A stretch of 64,000 nucleotides of DNA, taken from contig NZ_JBGKAC010000001.1 in NCBI RefSeq assembly GCF_041361465.1, positions 1,426,001 to 1,490,000 on the forward strand, written 5' to 3'. The notes beneath the pieces are model-generated. The model was not told where the DNA came from. It saw only the letters and a program-made list of their open reading frames with translations, and ran no database searches. The stretch is from Halobaculum sp. MBLA0143. Lineage in GTDB: Archaea > Halobacteriota > Halobacteria > Halobacteriales > Haloferacaceae. Shown in pieces: positions 28,714-59,841 of the stretch (positions are counted from its first letter, which is position 1; every line of letters begins with the position of its first letter). Both the position numbers and the translations under genes were made by a program.

Positions 28714-29505
28714 TCAGCAGTTCGTGTACTCGTCGTCTCGTTCCGAGTAGTTGATCTGGGTGAATCCCATTTCGTCCTTGTGGCCCTGGTTGCAGTAAGA
28801 GAGGGTCATCTCTCCCTCGAAGCCCGTAGAGAAGCCGCAGACTTCCAGAGTCTCGTACGTGTGGACGTACTTACCGCCGAAAGTGGTCGACCCACTCCAC
28901 CCGCTCTCCTTGGTGACAGAGCAGCCACCGTAGCCGGCAGCCGACCCACCCGATCCCAGGTTCGCGTAGTCGTCGAACTTGAAGCTCACTCCGTTCAGGG
29001 CGTTGTCGCGGCTGTAGAACGAGACGTTTCCGGACGTCTCTGCGGAGTCCTCGGCGTACTGGAAGGCGTCGGCCGGCCACGCGAACGAGAAGAGGTCCTC
29101 TTCCGGTTCGCCGGCCCCACTGCTCGCGTCCCAGTCGAAGTAGTACTCCACGTAGATGTCGTACGGATCTGGATTACAGTTGATGTGGTAAGCGATGATG
29201 TTCAGGCTGACACTCAGCTCACTGTCGCTCAACTGCTGTGTCGATGCTCCGTCGGTCGAGTTGGACTGGTGGTACAGTGTGTCCGTCGTCCCCTTCGACG
29301 TGGTGGCGTAGCCCCGTCGTTCGAGATACTGGAGGAACTTGTCGTTGTCTCCCGTGGCCTCACGAACCTCGCGCGCTTGCTCGATTACGTCGTCGAGTGT
29401 CTGATCTGCAGTGGCCGGACTGGACGCCAGCGAGAGCGAGACGCCAGCACCGAGTGTCTTGAGCACTGTTCTTCGACGTGGGCTCGTGGTATTCTCGTTC
29501 GCCAC
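28714..29505 (-). CDS. Tat-exported secreted protein, unknown
   Basis: A 263-residue protein. GTG start gives VANENTTSPRRRTVLKTLGA, a twin-arginine signal with the cleavage region near ASSPATA. The mature part starts with a helix (LDDVIEQAREVREATGDNDK) and is otherwise beta-rich, with five cysteines (NCNP, GGCS, EVCG, SYCNQ and the C-terminal NC). I do not recognise a family. The start at 29505 rather than an in-frame TTG at 29517 is supported by an AT-rich element about 28 bases upstream. AT-richer than the chromosome around it. Confidence 0.6.
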   Translation of the reverse strand: MANENTTSPRRRTVLKTLGAGVSLSLASSPATADQTLDDVIEQAREVREATGDNDKFLQYLERRGYATTSKGTTDTLYHQSNSTDGASTQQLSDSELSVSLNIIAYHINCNPDPYDIYVEYYFDWDASSGAGEPEEDLFSFAWPADAFQYAEDSAETSGNVSFYSRDNALNGVSFKFDDYANLGSGGSAAGYGGCSVTKESGWSGSTTFGGKYVHTYETLEVCGFSTGFEGEMTLSYCNQGHKDEMGFTQINYSERDDEYTNC

Positions 29506-29603
29506 ACCAAGAGACAATCTGAATCTAACTTAGTTGTTTCTAGCTCACTTTGCGACTTTCTCACTCTAGTGGTTTTTTATTCCTGGAAAGAACAGAATCC
29601 GGC

Positions 29604-30032
29604 GTGGACAGACGTACTTACGCTTCGACCCTGATTGCAGCTACTGCCGGGCTAGCCGGCTGTGCCACACTAGAGACGGAGTCTCGGTCCTCCACTGTCG
29701 CAGCCGACGACAGAGTAACACTCCGAGCTGTCAGGGTAAAAAACCATTCTGATCGTGAGTCGAAAGTCAACGTAACTGTCGTCCGAAACGGGTCGAACCA
29801 GTTCTGGTCGCAGTTGGACGTGCCAGCGGACGGCCAGAGGACACCTAACACGAACTGGCCGACATCGGGTGAGTCGTTCGTTGTCGTGTGCCAGTGTTCG
29901 ACGTACACCAGCACGGAGATCGCGTCGATGGAGCACGAGAACAACGACAGGGGGGTCCCGTACGAGATGCTGTTCGTGATCGAGGAGGCGGGAGACATCG
30001 AACAGAGGTTGCTCACAGTCGAGGGGATCTGA
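29604..30032 (+). CDS. Small lipoprotein, unknown
   Basis: A 142-residue lipoprotein: VDRRTYASTLIAATAGLAGC contains twin Arg and a lipobox (LAGC). The mature domain (VTLRAVRVKNHSDRESKVNV) is a small beta sandwich like other haloarchaeal surface lipoproteins. A TATA-like ttttttat lies about 30 bases before the GTG. It is divergent from the secreted protein at 28714 and is also AT-rich; it ends 3 bases before the next gene's stop on the other strand. Confidence 0.65.
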   Translation: MDRRTYASTLIAATAGLAGCATLETESRSSTVAADDRVTLRAVRVKNHSDRESKVNVTVVRNGSNQFWSQLDVPADGQRTPNTNWPTSGESFVVVCQCSTYTSTEIASMEHENNDRGVPYEMLFVIEEAGDIEQRLLTVEGI

Positions 30033-47889: not shown

Positions 47890-48636
47890 TCACCGGATCA
47901 CCGTTCCGACGCGCTCGCCCGCGAGGAAGCCGGCGAGCGCGTCCGGGCCGAAGATCGACGCCGGCGCGTCGAGCGCCAGCAGTTCCCGCACCTTCGCCGC
48001 CATCCCGCCGCTCACGTCGGTCGCGTCGCTCTCGCCCAACACCGGCGCGACCGTCTCGAACGACGACACCTCCGGGATCACCTCGTCGTCGTCGTCCAGG
48101 ACGCCCGGGACGGTCGAACAGAGCCCGACCCGATCCGTCTCGACCTGGCGGGCCAGCGTCGTGACGATCTCGTCGCCCGACAACACCGTCACCCCCTCGC
48201 CGGCGTGGGCGACCCCGTCGCCGTGGAGCACGGGGACGAACCCCTCCGCCAGCAGCGTGGTGACCTGCTCCGTCGGGAGGGTGAGTTCTCCGTCGGCGTC
48301 GCGGCTGGCCGCCGAGAGAGGGTGAACCGGCACCGCCGGCACGTCTCGCTCGTGGAGTCGCGCCCGGACGAACCGTTCGAGCGTCGCCATCGCGCCGTGA
48401 ACGTCCGTGACGGCGGCGTGGTCGTGTGTCCCGTCGGTCGTCGACACGCCGTGTTCGGCGGCGTGGTGGTGGCCGAAGGAACCGCCGCCGTGGACGACGA
48501 CCAGTTCCGTCACGTCGTCGGCCGCGAGCGCGTCTGCGACTGCGTCGGCCGCGGCGTCCAGCGTTGGGCCGTCCAGTGTCTCCGCCCGATCCTTCTCCGT
48601 GATTACCGAGCCGCCGAGTTTGAGTACAGTCGTCAT
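47890..48636 (-). CDS. ipk: Isopentenyl phosphate kinase
   Basis: Phosphorylates isopentenyl phosphate to isopentenyl diphosphate in the archaeal mevalonate route. A 248-residue amino-acid-kinase-fold protein: LKLGGSVITEKDR at the N-terminus, VVVHGGGSFGHHHAAEHGVS with the key His, and DVSGGMAAKVRELL near the C-terminus. The ATG was chosen because it gives the normal start TTVLKLGG. Mevalonate kinase of the same pathway lies 1.8 kb downstream on the same strand but is separated by the accessory cassette. Confidence 0.93.
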   Translation of the reverse strand: MTTVLKLGGSVITEKDRAETLDGPTLDAAADAVADALAADDVTELVVVHGGGSFGHHHAAEHGVSTTDGTHDHAAVTDVHGAMATLERFVRARLHERDVPAVPVHPLSAASRDADGELTLPTEQVTTLLAEGFVPVLHGDGVAHAGEGVTVLSGDEIVTTLARQVETDRVGLCSTVPGVLDDDDEVIPEVSSFETVAPVLGESDATDVSGGMAAKVRELLALDAPASIFGPDALAGFLAGERVGTVIR

Positions 48637-48810
48637 CTGTGGTGTTCTCCTGTCTGCGTGTCCACACCGGTCGAACGCTGCCGTCGTCGGCACAGACGCG
48701 ACCGTTCGGGTTGAGAGTGGCGCTTTCGCCGGCTCCGTCCAAGACCGTCTCACAGGTAACGTCGTCTCCATGCGCGTTCTGTTTGACACTATTCGAGATG
48801 CGGCCAGAAG

Positions 48811-48817
48811 ATATAAT
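48811..48817 (+). promoter_or_regulatory. TATA box of the DUF488 cassette
   Basis: atataat lies 33 bases before the GTG at 48844. The surrounding region is AT-richer than the chromosome, suggesting it came with the cassette. Confidence 0.6.
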
Positions 48818-48843
48818 CCACATCACCCAGATACTTATCGGCC

Positions 48844-49299
48844 GTGGCAAGAGAGACCGAGATCTACACGATTGGGTTCACAAAGAAAGGTGCAGCGGAG
48901 TTCTTTGGACTCCTCGAACGAGCGAGCGTCGAACGCCTGATCGACGTTCGAGTCAGGAACCGGTCACAGCTGTCGGGGTTTGCAAAACGAGACGACCTGA
49001 AATTCTTCCTCGAGGAGCTGCTGGGAGCAGCCTACGAGCACCGGACGGAGCTGGCACCCACAGAGGAACTGCTCGACGCCTGGCGGGACGACGAGATCTC
49101 GTGGGCCGAGTACGAGCGACGGTTCTACGAACTGCTGGCGGACCGAGCCGTTGAGGACGAACTGAACCGGTCGAGGTTCGAAGCCCCGACGGTCCTGTTG
49201 TGTAGCGAACACGAACCAGACCACTGCCACCGTCGTATCGTCGTCGAGTACCTGGACGACCACTGGGGGGCGACGCAGGCGAGACACCTCGTTGAGTGA
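48844..49299 (+). CDS. DUF488 family protein
   Basis: A 151-residue protein. IYTIGFTKKGAAEFFGLLER begins the domain, followed by RLIDVRVRNRSQLSGFAKR, and near the end LLCSEHEPDHCHRRIVVEYL, the DUF488 signature with its CxxEx5CHR. The fold is thought to bind nucleotide-like ligands but no reaction is established. It starts at GTG and ends 1 base before the next gene, so the two form an operon. Confidence 0.82.
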   Translation: MARETEIYTIGFTKKGAAEFFGLLERASVERLIDVRVRNRSQLSGFAKRDDLKFFLEELLGAAYEHRTELAPTEELLDAWRDDEISWAEYERRFYELLADRAVEDELNRSRFEAPTVLLCSEHEPDHCHRRIVVEYLDDHWGATQARHLVE

Positions 49300-49300
49300 C

Positions 49301-50002
49301 ATGACCCGGGAGATGGAACTCCTCGTCTTGGCGAGTTCACACAAGTACGAGGGCGTGTGTGTCGCCGGCGTCTGGCCAGACGAGTCACGGTGGGTACGAC
49401 CCGTCTCCAACCAAGAGAAAGGGCAGATTCCCGAACACAAGTGTCTCACCAGTCGTGGGAAGGACCCAGAACCGCTCGACAGAGTGCGTGTCTTCCTAGA
49501 GTCGCGCTCTGCCGAACCGCACCAGCCGGAGAACTGGACTGTGGCCGACCGCACCTGGGAGATGGTCGAGAAAGGATGGACAGACACCGCTGTCGACTGT
49601 CTCGGCAACGTACTCCAGAACGGTCCCGAACTGTTCGGTAGCACTCATCGGAGCGTATCCAGTCAGCGAGCCCGAGAGGAGGTCGACAGTTCGCTCGCGC
49701 TCGTGATGCCGAGTGAGATTGTGTTCGTGGACGGTGAGAGGAACAGTCCCCGGGTGGGATTCACCCTTGATGGTGCCGACTACGAGCTCCCTGTCACGGA
49801 TCGTCGGTGGAGCAGTCGTATCAACAACCACGAACTAGACCACCTCCCGCCGTCGGCAGTCGTCGGAGAAGAGACGGAACTGCTGTTCACGATCAGTTTG
49901 GCGATGGAGAAGAACGGGAGTCACCACAAGCTCGTCGCAGGAGTGATCGAACTGTCGCCAGGGCAGTTCCGGCGTGTTCGAGAGAGCCAATCGGACCGCT
50001 AA
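49301..50002 (+). CDS. Dual-OB-fold-like protein
   Basis: A 233-residue protein partnered with DUF488. It starts TREMELLVLASSHKYEGVCV, then WPDESRWVRPVSNQEKGQIP and DRVRVFLESRSAEPHQPENW, the pattern of the Dual OB-containing domain that often lies beside DUF488 genes. A second beta-rich half follows (PSEIVFVDGERNSPRVGFTL). OB folds bind nucleic acids or nucleotides, so a nucleic-acid role is likely but unproven. ATG chosen over a TTG upstream. Confidence 0.6.
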   Translation: MTREMELLVLASSHKYEGVCVAGVWPDESRWVRPVSNQEKGQIPEHKCLTSRGKDPEPLDRVRVFLESRSAEPHQPENWTVADRTWEMVEKGWTDTAVDCLGNVLQNGPELFGSTHRSVSSQRAREEVDSSLALVMPSEIVFVDGERNSPRVGFTLDGADYELPVTDRRWSSRINNHELDHLPPSAVVGEETELLFTISLAMEKNGSHHKLVAGVIELSPGQFRRVRESQSDR

Positions 50003-50335
50003 TCACTCGTCGTCGACATCGAGTTCCCCACGCAGGTACGCGAGAATCACATCACCGTGACACGCCTTCGGCTTACACCAACACCCGAGCGTCTCGCCGC
50101 GAAGTTCCTCGACCGCCTCCCTGAACGCCGGGTCGTCATCCACCTGCCCCAGGAACCACTCTCGGTACGCCTCGACGCTGCCTTCGCGGGTGTAGTCGCC
50201 GCCGTCCTTCTCCAGTCTGAACGGGTTTCCGAACTGTGTGCTCCGGTCGATCATCCGAACCCCGTCACGGCCGTGGCGACTGACGTTGACCAGTTTCGTC
50301 TGCTCGTGGCCGGTGAGTGTCGACTGATACGCCAC
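50003..50335 (-). CDS. DUF4326 domain protein
   Basis: A 110-residue protein with the domain signature VRMIDRSTQFGNPFRLEKDG, YREWFLGQVDDD and ETLGCWCKPKACHGDVIL. It is convergent with the OB protein with no base between the two stop codons. GTG start. The family is common in phages and accessory regions; no reaction is established that I can cite. AT-richer than the chromosome. Confidence 0.82.
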   Translation of the reverse strand: MAYQSTLTGHEQTKLVNVSRHGRDGVRMIDRSTQFGNPFRLEKDGGDYTREGSVEAYREWFLGQVDDDPAFREAVEELRGETLGCWCKPKACHGDVILAYLRGELDVDDE

Positions 50336-50463
50336 AACTCACTGTACGCCTACCACCACTTATCTGCGTCGGTCAAGGCGGCAATCGAACGCCCGAGCAG
50401 CTCGACCCGTCGACTTCTCTAGTCGGCCGGATTGCGGTTGTGCCGTCGTCAGCTACCACACAC

Positions 50464-51477
50464 TCACTCGGACTCGATCCGCACGCCCTCCGTCGCCAAC
50501 TCCGCCCGGAAGGCGTGTTCACACGCCGGTGCGAGCGACAGCGCGGTCTCCGTCGCGTCCGTCGGGTCCAAGGCGACGACACAGCCGCCGCCGCCGGCGC
50601 CGGTCAGCTTCGCCCCGGTCGCGCCCGCCTCCCGAGCGGTCCACACCATCTCGTCCAACGAGCGGGCGGAGACGCCGAGCGCCGACAGGAGTCCGTGGTC
50701 GACGTCCATCAGCTCCCCCAGCGCGTCCAGGTGGTCGTCGTCCAGTCCCTCCGCGTCCGCCTCCGCCAGCAGTGACTCCCCCGTCCGGGTGAGGTCGCCG
50801 ATGGCGGCGACGGTGTCGGCGGCGAACCCGTGACGCTCCCGAAGGTCGCGGACGCCGGCGACGAGCTCACCGGTGTCGCCGGCGCCGCCGTCGTAGCCGA
50901 TCACGAACGGGAGGCTCGGCGCCGACAGCCGTCGGGTGTCGTCACCTTCCACCCGGACGGCGCCGCCGACGGCCGAACAGAACGTGTCCGCTCGCGACGC
51001 CTGGCCGTCCTGGGCCTCGTACTCCGCCCGGAAGGCGCGGTCCGCGACCGCCTCCGGCGGTAAGTCGACGCCGACGGCGCTCGTGGCGGCCTTGATCGCC
51101 GCGACGACGACTGCGGCCGACGACCCCAGTCCGGCGCCCAACGGGATGTCCGACTCCACCGTGATGTCGAACCCTTGGTCGGGGTCGCCGACGGCGTCGC
51201 GGGTCTGTGCGACCGCCTCGTCGACGTACCGCATCGCCGCCTCGACGAGTCCCGGAGGGGCGTCCACGTCCGGCCGGTCGTCGACGGAGCCGCCCCAGGT
51301 GACGGTGAACCCGTCCAACGAGAGGTCACGCGCGTCCACCTGGACGCGGTCGTCCGACCGAGGCTCGGCGGTGACTCGTGCGCGACGCTCGACGGCACAC
51401 GGCACCGCCGGCTCCCCGTAGACGACGGCGTGTTCGCCGAAGAGGTACACCTTCCCCGGGGCGCTACAGGTCGTCAT
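50464..51477 (-). CDS. mvk: Mevalonate kinase
   Basis: Phosphorylates mevalonate in isoprenoid lipid synthesis. A 337-residue GHMP kinase: TTCSAPGKVYLFGEHAVVYG at the N-terminus, DIPLGAGLGSSAAVVVAAIK for ATP, and TGAKLTGAGGGGCVVAL as the third motif. ATG start. The other gene of this pathway in the window is ipk at 47890. Confidence 0.95.
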   Translation of the reverse strand: MTTCSAPGKVYLFGEHAVVYGEPAVPCAVERRARVTAEPRSDDRVQVDARDLSLDGFTVTWGGSVDDRPDVDAPPGLVEAAMRYVDEAVAQTRDAVGDPDQGFDITVESDIPLGAGLGSSAAVVVAAIKAATSAVGVDLPPEAVADRAFRAEYEAQDGQASRADTFCSAVGGAVRVEGDDTRRLSAPSLPFVIGYDGGAGDTGELVAGVRDLRERHGFAADTVAAIGDLTRTGESLLAEADAEGLDDDHLDALGELMDVDHGLLSALGVSARSLDEMVWTAREAGATGAKLTGAGGGGCVVALDPTDATETALSLAPACEHAFRAELATEGVRIESE

Positions 51478-57719: not shown

Positions 57720-58772
57720 ATGGGATCTAGTTGGGTGGCTTCCGACGCAACGAGTCACACGCTCGACGACAAACCGTTCAGTCCGACCAGTATCGTCTCG
57801 GTCGCGGTCGCGGTTGAAGACAGAGAGGAGTTCGGGTCTGAGTACAGGGAGATCGTCTCGTCGGTGTGTGACGAATACGACATACCCTACGAGAGGCCGG
57901 TAATAAAGAACGGTGAGATAAACACCCACATCGGAGAGTGGAGTCGACGAGCCGTTCGAAAAGAACTCGTTGAGGATCTACTGGGAATAGGGGTTCTCAA
58001 GAACGTTCATGTCACTGAAACAACACTCGGCCAGCCTGGCGATCAAGTAGTGCCGATATTCCAGACAGATGATAGCTCACGTCGTCTCGCGTCTCCGCAG
58101 GAAGTCAGAGACAAGATACAGCCGTACTACAACCTCGTCTCTATTTGGGACTACTTCGAGGAAATTGACAAAAGGTTCCAACACCGAAACGTACTCGTAG
58201 ATGACTTCAGCGGGAACGACTCCCTGGTGTGGCGAAAGGTCGGTGAAGAATCAGATCAACTCAATGTCGTGCCGAAGGGGGACCGCGTTTACCCTCTCCT
58301 CTCGCTCGCCGACCTCACGATGGAGTACGTGAAACAGCAGGTCGACGACTGGTCTGACGATGAGATTCTGAATCTACTGGTAGAGGTCACTCCAGATGAC
58401 TCAGCTTTCGTTCAGGCCAACTCACTCGACACTGTCGAGGATCTCAGGAAGATGGTTCCGCTGTCAGAGAAACCGGCAGACACGGAGGCGCACTATCCAC
58501 ATCCAATCGTGTTCATCCACGCTGGGGGGTGGCACAGACGCGAAGTGGAGTCACTCGACTTCTACGATCTCGCCTGTGAGTGGGCCTGCGAGCAAGATGG
58601 CTGCGTGAAGTTTCTGAACAAGGAGAACGACCGAGAGTACATGAAGGGAGGAGACTTGATCGTAGATGTCGACAAGACGGGAGACATCAACCACTACTCC
58701 GAATTCAATCACGAGCGGCAGGTGGAGATCCTCAAATTAGAGGAAGCTATGGAACGATTCACCGGGGACTGA
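57720..58772 (+). CDS. AT-rich orphan gene, possible RNase H-like protein
   Basis: A 350-residue protein I do not recognise. Codon use is AT-richer than the rest of the window. SPTSIVSVAVAVEDREEFGS begins it; near the middle NVLVDDFSGNDSLVWRKVGE leads to VVPKGDRVYPLLSLADLTME, a pattern like the DUF3800/RNase H fold in which Asp residues bind metal (iDd...ADL). The C-terminal third has HPIVFIHAGGWHRREVESLD and KFLNKENDREYMKGGDLIVD. A TATA-like acataac lies 30 bases upstream, and a hairpin closes it at 58790. RNase H-like identity is a guess; other folds are possible. Confidence 0.45.
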   Translation: MGSSWVASDATSHTLDDKPFSPTSIVSVAVAVEDREEFGSEYREIVSSVCDEYDIPYERPVIKNGEINTHIGEWSRRAVRKELVEDLLGIGVLKNVHVTETTLGQPGDQVVPIFQTDDSSRRLASPQEVRDKIQPYYNLVSIWDYFEEIDKRFQHRNVLVDDFSGNDSLVWRKVGEESDQLNVVPKGDRVYPLLSLADLTMEYVKQQVDDWSDDEILNLLVEVTPDDSAFVQANSLDTVEDLRKMVPLSEKPADTEAHYPHPIVFIHAGGWHRREVESLDFYDLACEWACEQDGCVKFLNKENDREYMKGGDLIVDVDKTGDINHYSEFNHERQVEILKLEEAMERFTGD

Positions 58773-58789
58773 TTGGTGAATTGGAGTTA

Positions 58790-58810
58790 CTGGTCCCGCT
58801 TAGGGACCAG
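58790..58810 (+). terminator. Hairpin terminator after the orphan gene
   Basis: ctggtccc and gggaccag (8-bp stem) with loop gctta, 18 bases past the stop. Followed by aaagtgg rather than a T-run, but the position and perfect stem support termination. Confidence 0.5.
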
Positions 58811-58899
58811 AAAGTGGCGCGACTCCTCCTAGGGGCCACGCCTTCAGCTGATAGTTCGTCACGATCCTTATTATACTTTGTGTATCATAGGAGCTACAC

Positions 58900-59076
58900 C
58901 TACCGCACATGCTGCCACGCCTCCAAGGCCACAATCCCACCGAGAACGCCGACCCCAGTAGCGAACCCGAAGACGACACCGGCGGCGACGGACGACTCCC
59001 GGAGGCCGCCGACGACCGCGCCCAGGGCCGCGGCGGCGAGCGCGTACGCCAGGGCCCGCAGGACAGTTCGTCTCAC
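58900..59076 (-). CDS. Small two-helix membrane protein coupled to NUDIX
   Basis: A 58-residue protein. VRRTVLRALAYALAAAALGA is the first helix region, then VVFGFATGVGVLGGIVALEA the second, ending WQHVR. GTG start overlaps the NUDIX TGA by 4 bases (GTGA), the same coupling seen in other operons of this genome, which argues it is real. Unknown. Confidence 0.65.
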   Translation of the reverse strand: MRRTVLRALAYALAAAALGAVVGGLRESSVAAGVVFGFATGVGVLGGIVALEAWQHVR

Positions 59077-59757: not shown

Positions 59758-59841
59758 GCGAGGGTAGCCAAGCTAGGAAACGGCGGCGGACTCAAGATCC
59801 GCTCCTGTAGAGGTCCGTGGGTTCAAATCCCTCCCCTCGCA
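59758..59841 (+). tRNA. tRNA-Leu (CAA anticodon)
   Basis: 84 bases with the long variable arm of tRNA-Leu: acceptor GCGAGGG/CCCTCGC, anticodon stem GCGGA/TCCGC with loop CTCAAGA (anticodon CAA), T-arm with loop TTCAAAT, discriminator A. No encoded CCA. A TATA-like gatattcaag lies about 30-40 bases upstream. It is 2.7 kb from leuS, whose product charges it. Confidence 0.95.

Follow-up and report, generated by a model that had tools for sequence, protein, structure and literature searches.

Three genes lying between ipk and mvk in the window (the whole stretch of 64,000 nucleotides of haloarchaeal chromosome from Halobaculum sp. MBLA0143 that was analyzed) constitute an inserted, horizontally acquired unit. 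We consider it rather likely that this cassette is a mobile module directed against the DNA of viruses or plasmids and a variant of the candidate defense system PDC-M45, which is listed in PADLOC-DB 2.0 as a phage defense candidate composed of a dual OB-fold protein (DuOB), a long DUF488 protein, and a DUF488 protein. Our main new result is an either/or relationship in which DuOB–DUF488 pairs are accompanied by the long DUF488 or by DUF4326, and in none of the loci compared by both.

The inserted unit between ipk and mvk

The three genes and their layout (Table 1) were as the sequence-only reading had described them: the Pfam families had been named correctly, and both spacings were exact, with one base between the DUF488 stop (49299) and the DuOB ATG (49301) and zero bases between the DuOB stop, which ends at 50002, and the convergent DUF4326 stop, which begins at 50003. 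The span that it gave, 48811 to 50335, was right at its end but not at its start, since coding begins at a GTG at 48844 and the foreign block runs from ∼48730 to 50462. Its description of the DNA as AT-richer also held: the cassette genes have 60 to 63% GC (DUF488 60.5%, DuOB 60.0%, DUF4326 63.1%; GC3 0.74, 0.71, and 0.78, respectively) versus 72 to 73% in the flanking genes (ipk 71.6%, mvk 73.4%; GC3 0.90 and 0.91). An Rfam scan of the cassette region gave no match.

Table 1. Features of the ipk–mvk region in window coordinates
Feature	Position	Strand	Description
ipk (isopentenyl phosphate kinase)	47890..48636	-	left neighbor, housekeeping, outside cassette; PF00696 4e-34
Inserted block, ipk–mvk gap	48730..50462 (limits approximate)	.	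homology break versus same-genus G159
DUF488 gene	48844..49299	+	151 aa; core enzyme; PF04343 1.6e-23, DUF488-N3a 1.8e-13
DuOB gene	49301..50002	+	233 aa; tandem OB-fold protein; PF22557 "Dual OB-containing domain" 4.6e-37
DUF4326 gene	50003..50335	-	110 aa; convergent, third component; PF14216 5.4e-23
mvk (mevalonate kinase)	50464..51477	-	right neighbor, housekeeping, outside cassette; GHMP kinase domains

In all 29 relatives whose ipk locus was compared, three of them congeneric, mvk lies directly beside ipk in the same orientation without the cassette, and the gap between them, a few to ∼580 bases, contains no DUF488, DuOB, or DUF4326. The alignment to the nearest relative (G159, locus L061; ipk 83% identical) stops at 48729 and resumes at 50463, placing all three genes inside one foreign block. 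Housekeeping synteny conserved in all relatives, the outcome that would have counted against the sequence-only reading, was thus not what we saw, and we rejected a housekeeping accessory of isoprenoid synthesis because the site is empty in 29/29 relatives. No convincing terminal repeats of the block were found; a near-match of 13 bases (48679 and 50441) is located close to its ends, but this GC-rich DNA contains many similar repeats. In G159, some 480 bases of different, unrelated sequence occupy the ipk–mvk gap (L061:2239-2817), so this gap may tolerate insertions. Elsewhere in the window, a 350-codon frame of unknown family (57720-58772, + strand) lies in the lowest-GC stretch (54%, 58001-59000), about 1 kb before a tRNA-Leu at 59758, and is possibly another recent insertion. 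A further low-GC stretch (57.5%; 28714-29517, - strand, and 29550-30032, + strand) carries a frame whose start resembles that of a Tat-type secreted protein and a small lipoprotein-like frame.

The same layout recurs in G675, a haloarchaeon of another family, where DUF488 and DuOB are again followed by a convergent DUF4326, with stops overlapping by four bases, at a site different from that in the window. Identity to the window proteins is 67% for DUF488, 36% for DuOB, and 73% for DUF4326. Because G675 has this arrangement, we assign the convergent DUF4326 to the cassette, and we rejected a chance neighborhood. The claim that the three genes are one unit was strengthened in a larger sample as well. 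We searched a DUF488 alignment against 84,980 species genomes and IMG/VR, keeping the best 80 of 577 bacterial loci and 36 viral-collection loci; DuOB adjoins DUF488 in 73/80 of these best bacterial loci and 35/36 of the viral-collection loci (together 108/116), which, with the second haloarchaeal family, is the recurrent co-occurrence for which the sequence-only reading had proposed to look.

The distribution is patchy. DuOB occurs in 1/170 genomes of the family, 2/392 of the order, and 12/393 of the phylum (eight above the curated cut-off), and in 1/125 genomes of the family of G675; within the window's family, DUF4326 was found in 5/167 genomes and DUF488 of any kind in 30/167. A protein search of genome contigs with a single DuOB sequence as query gave no match. 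Neither DuOB nor related DUF488 was found in 50,697 phage records, so neither is a gene of these deposited phages. The order DuOB–DUF488–DUF4326 is present on plasmids of Acinetobacter, Citrobacter, Klebsiella, Leclercia, and Moraxella (checked by HMM), and the order DuOB–long DUF488–DUF488 on plasmids of Rhodovastum, Allochromatium, and Agrobacterium; the smallest cassette-bearing plasmid is 4.2 kb. Among 5,426 E. coli genomes, one (SC487, L238:11375-13058) has a close DuOB–DUF488–DUF4326 cassette; it occupies the icd/e14 attachment site and is flanked by an integrase remnant on one side and an integrase on the other. The empty site in 29/29 relatives, together with these plasmid and integrase-linked copies, bears out the view of a mobile, laterally acquired cassette, whose mobility and patchiness are like those of defense or other conflict genes.

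The third place: long DUF488 or DUF4326

The window DUF488 matches the PADLOC model PDC-M45C (2.3e-61), and DuOB matches PDC-M45A (6.1e-29); the long DUF488 of other loci corresponds to PDC-M45B, and no PADLOC model matched DUF4326. Compared with PDC-M45, the window has M45A and M45C adjacent and one base apart, whereas M45B is missing from the genome and a convergent DUF4326 stands in its place. Because M45B is missing, we file the cassette as a relative of PDC-M45 rather than as a full member. The proposal of an undescribed system was therefore too strong: DUF488 with DuOB is already a candidate in PADLOC-DB, and DuOB is named in Pfam and RefSeq. What is new relative to the PADLOC catalogue is the DUF4326-containing variant, its convergent haloarchaeal form, and a RecQ fusion as a part of the system. 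Our literature search found no mention of PDC-M45 and no report of defense activity for the candidate system, nor is it discussed in the main text of a survey from 2026 in which PADLOC candidates were used to study archaeal immunity.

We pooled 126 DuOB–DUF488 pair loci from plasmid, archaeal, genomic, and viral-collection sets; as only the best 80 bacterial loci were retained, sequences close to the query are over-represented. A third gene lies beside the pair in 124 of them: the long DUF488 in 88, DUF4326 in 36, and both in 0/126. For the two pairs with neither, a contig end lies no more than about 260 bases away. The window genome has a single DUF488 (M45C), hence no M45B, and its single DUF4326 lies beside the DUF488–DuOB pair. 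In this arrangement, DUF4326 fills the place held in most relatives by a second, longer DUF488.

Cassettes of the same three families on plasmids and prophages of Proteobacteria differ from that in the window in having all three genes codirectional, and their DUF4326 carries an extra N-terminal region of roughly 50 to 100 aa and belongs to a separate clade. In trees built on short proteins (about 145-180 columns), the 36 bacterial DuOB-linked DUF4326 proteins form one clade (97/95; 95/93 in a smaller tree), and both cassette proteins from haloarchaea group with stand-alone proteins of haloarchaeal plasmids and viruses (99/95, 99/99), being each other's closest kin in 51% of bootstraps. The two haloarchaeal DUF488 proteins are sisters (100/98) and lie within the long DUF488–DUF488–DuOB systems of Acidimicrobiia and Chloroflexi (95/89), away from the DuOB–DUF488–DUF4326 group. 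The trees indicate that the haloarchaeal DUF4326 was drawn from a local pool of plasmids and viruses, independently of the bacterial clade linked to DuOB. In the simplest history, a DUF488–DuOB pair would have passed from bacteria into a haloarchaeal lineage, in which the long DUF488 was then lost and replaced by a local DUF4326. The strict either/or, combined with this separate archaeal recruitment, predicts that both families perform one function on a shared substrate.

Predicted fold and conserved motifs

The OB-like architecture suggested for the second gene was confirmed by its PF22557 match (128.6 bits against a Pfam cut-off of 27) and by a confident, beta-rich model (pLDDT 95.4) with dual-OB neighbors. 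The best PDB folds are the HIN-200 domains of p202, p204, and IFI16 (E 1.5e-4), followed by RPA, Cdc13, Teb1, and POT1, every one of them a DNA-binding protein with an OB-fold build; RecO is also among the fold neighbors. TM-scores of the HIN domains against the model are 0.33 to 0.39 at about 10% identity, and these low values possibly reflect different domain packing. Tandem OB folds are common to both, whereas DuOB is without a pyrin or signaling part, and we treat the likeness as a shared build and an analogy only. C20 and R33 are invariant across 95 DuOB proteins.

In six archaeal genomes (L091-L096), two DUF488 domains lie next to a frame that encodes DuOB, and in both of the two proteins scanned, DuOB is fused to a RecQ-type helicase, which points to DNA as the target. 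These DuOB–RecQ genes (L092:10689-13397 and L091:1-2175), from the same phylum, lie directly after two DUF488 genes, and that of L092 has RQC and HRDC domains.

Both cysteine motifs are intact in the window: C-x-E...C-H-R of DUF488 at residues 120-130 (C120/E122/C128-H-R) and C-x-C-x-P-x-x-C-H-G of DUF4326 (C85/C87/C92-H-G). The motif is kept in 132/133 DUF488, 91/91 long DUF488, and 36/36 DUF4326 proteins. A PDB structure search with the DUF4326 model gave no significant match, PDB sequence searches with all three cassette proteins gave chance matches only, and a profile comparison of DUF488 with DUF4326 aligned 18 columns at a probability of 40%. A 2023 survey of the rhodanese-phosphatases, reportedly by the same authors as the predictions cited next, is said to define a RapZ-C/DUF488/DUF4326 clade, thereby grouping the families to which the window DUF488 and DUF4326 belong, and to predict DNA-end processing in conflict systems. 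DUF4326 has been assigned by prediction to the rhodanese-phosphatase superfamily, with a predicted role in removing the terminal phosphate from ADP-ribose derivatives or, alternatively, as a bridge between NAD signaling and DNA modification (PMC9503650; PMC7824862).

Defense, repair, or nucleotide processing

For an antiviral or antiplasmid module, we envisage that DuOB, through its two tandem OB folds, would bind nucleic acid as a sensor or docking subunit, and that DUF488 and DUF4326 would act on DNA or a nucleotide derivative that it presents. As to the chemistry, which is the least certain part, we favor the trimming or modification of invading DNA at its phosphate-bearing ends; such end processing would block viral or plasmid DNA. 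A more specific version, which we put forward tentatively and by analogy, is that a HIN-like, DNA-sensing dual-OB protein steers two cysteine-motif enzymes to invading DNA, with a chemically interchangeable third place into which DUF4326 was recruited independently in haloarchaea and Proteobacteria. Cassettes lie beside CRISPR/Csm6 in Allochromatium, CBASS in Agrobacterium, and a NotI-type R-M system in Klebsiella. The 118 flanking ORFs of 80 bacterial loci gave scattered defense and integrase matches, which, with no matched control, are examples and not enrichment. Neighboring genes of the G675 cassette encode an EVE-domain AAA protein, an HNH nuclease, a protein with a cold-shock domain, and XPG-like, CARF, and CARF-PIN proteins; the window cassette lies between housekeeping genes, outside any defense island. 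The nucleic-acid-linked defense module proposed by the sequence-only reading stands as the leading interpretation, given the mobility, the DNA-type fold, and the defense-gene neighbors of some copies, with the defense role itself a matter of inference.

We were concerned that the same features could describe a mobile module for DNA repair or genome maintenance, in which DuOB would recognize damaged or broken DNA and the enzymes would remove blocks from its ends ahead of RecQ- or Uvr-type machinery, without acting specifically against viruses. The archaeal DuOB–RecQ fusions with RQC and HRDC domains and the presence of RPA and RecO among the fold neighbors fit such a role, as do closely related DUF488 genes, without DuOB, that lie on plasmids beside uvrA/uvrB and formaldehyde-response genes (frmR and others), possibly a DNA-adduct repair context. 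Because of these DuOB-free relatives, we do not give full weight to the defense reading. Plasmids of this kind come from Comamonas, E. coli (IncX5), and Acinetobacter (L109, L110, L112). However, RecQ-like helicases occur in defense systems too, and DpdF models match the fusion; the extreme patchiness, with DuOB in one genome of the family alone, and the carriage as small plasmid or integrase-linked cargo also argue against repair, which we regard as rather unlikely.

A module that processes NAD, ADP-ribose, or other nucleotides, countering or making diffusible signals with only an indirect link to DNA, would fit the activity proposed for DUF4326 on ADP-ribose phosphates, its viral fusions to Macro, NADAR, and SLOG domains (PMC9503650; PMC7824862), and the CARF genes near the G675 cassette. 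We judge it improbable, since the annotated cassettes include no Macro, NADAR, SLOG, or TIR gene and the DuOB fold and RecQ fusion point to DNA. The haloarchaeal DUF4326 could also be an unrelated neighbor from local mobile DNA, leaving DUF488–DuOB as the functional unit: it is encoded on the opposite strand, the proteins closest to it occur on their own on haloarchaeal plasmids, and it falls outside the bacterial DuOB-linked clade. Yet the convergent layout reappears in a second family at another site with both enzymes 67 to 73% identical, and the third place would otherwise be empty, which is seen in no pair with adequate flanks, making this the least probable of the explanations considered.

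A detection rule requiring M45B would miss the DUF4326 variant or call it incompletely. The prediction that the long DUF488 and DUF4326 do the same job is open to test by exchanging the two. These data make out of an uncharacterized database entry a defined system of three parts that can be tested, with a predicted DNA-binding subunit, a constant enzyme, and a swappable enzyme.
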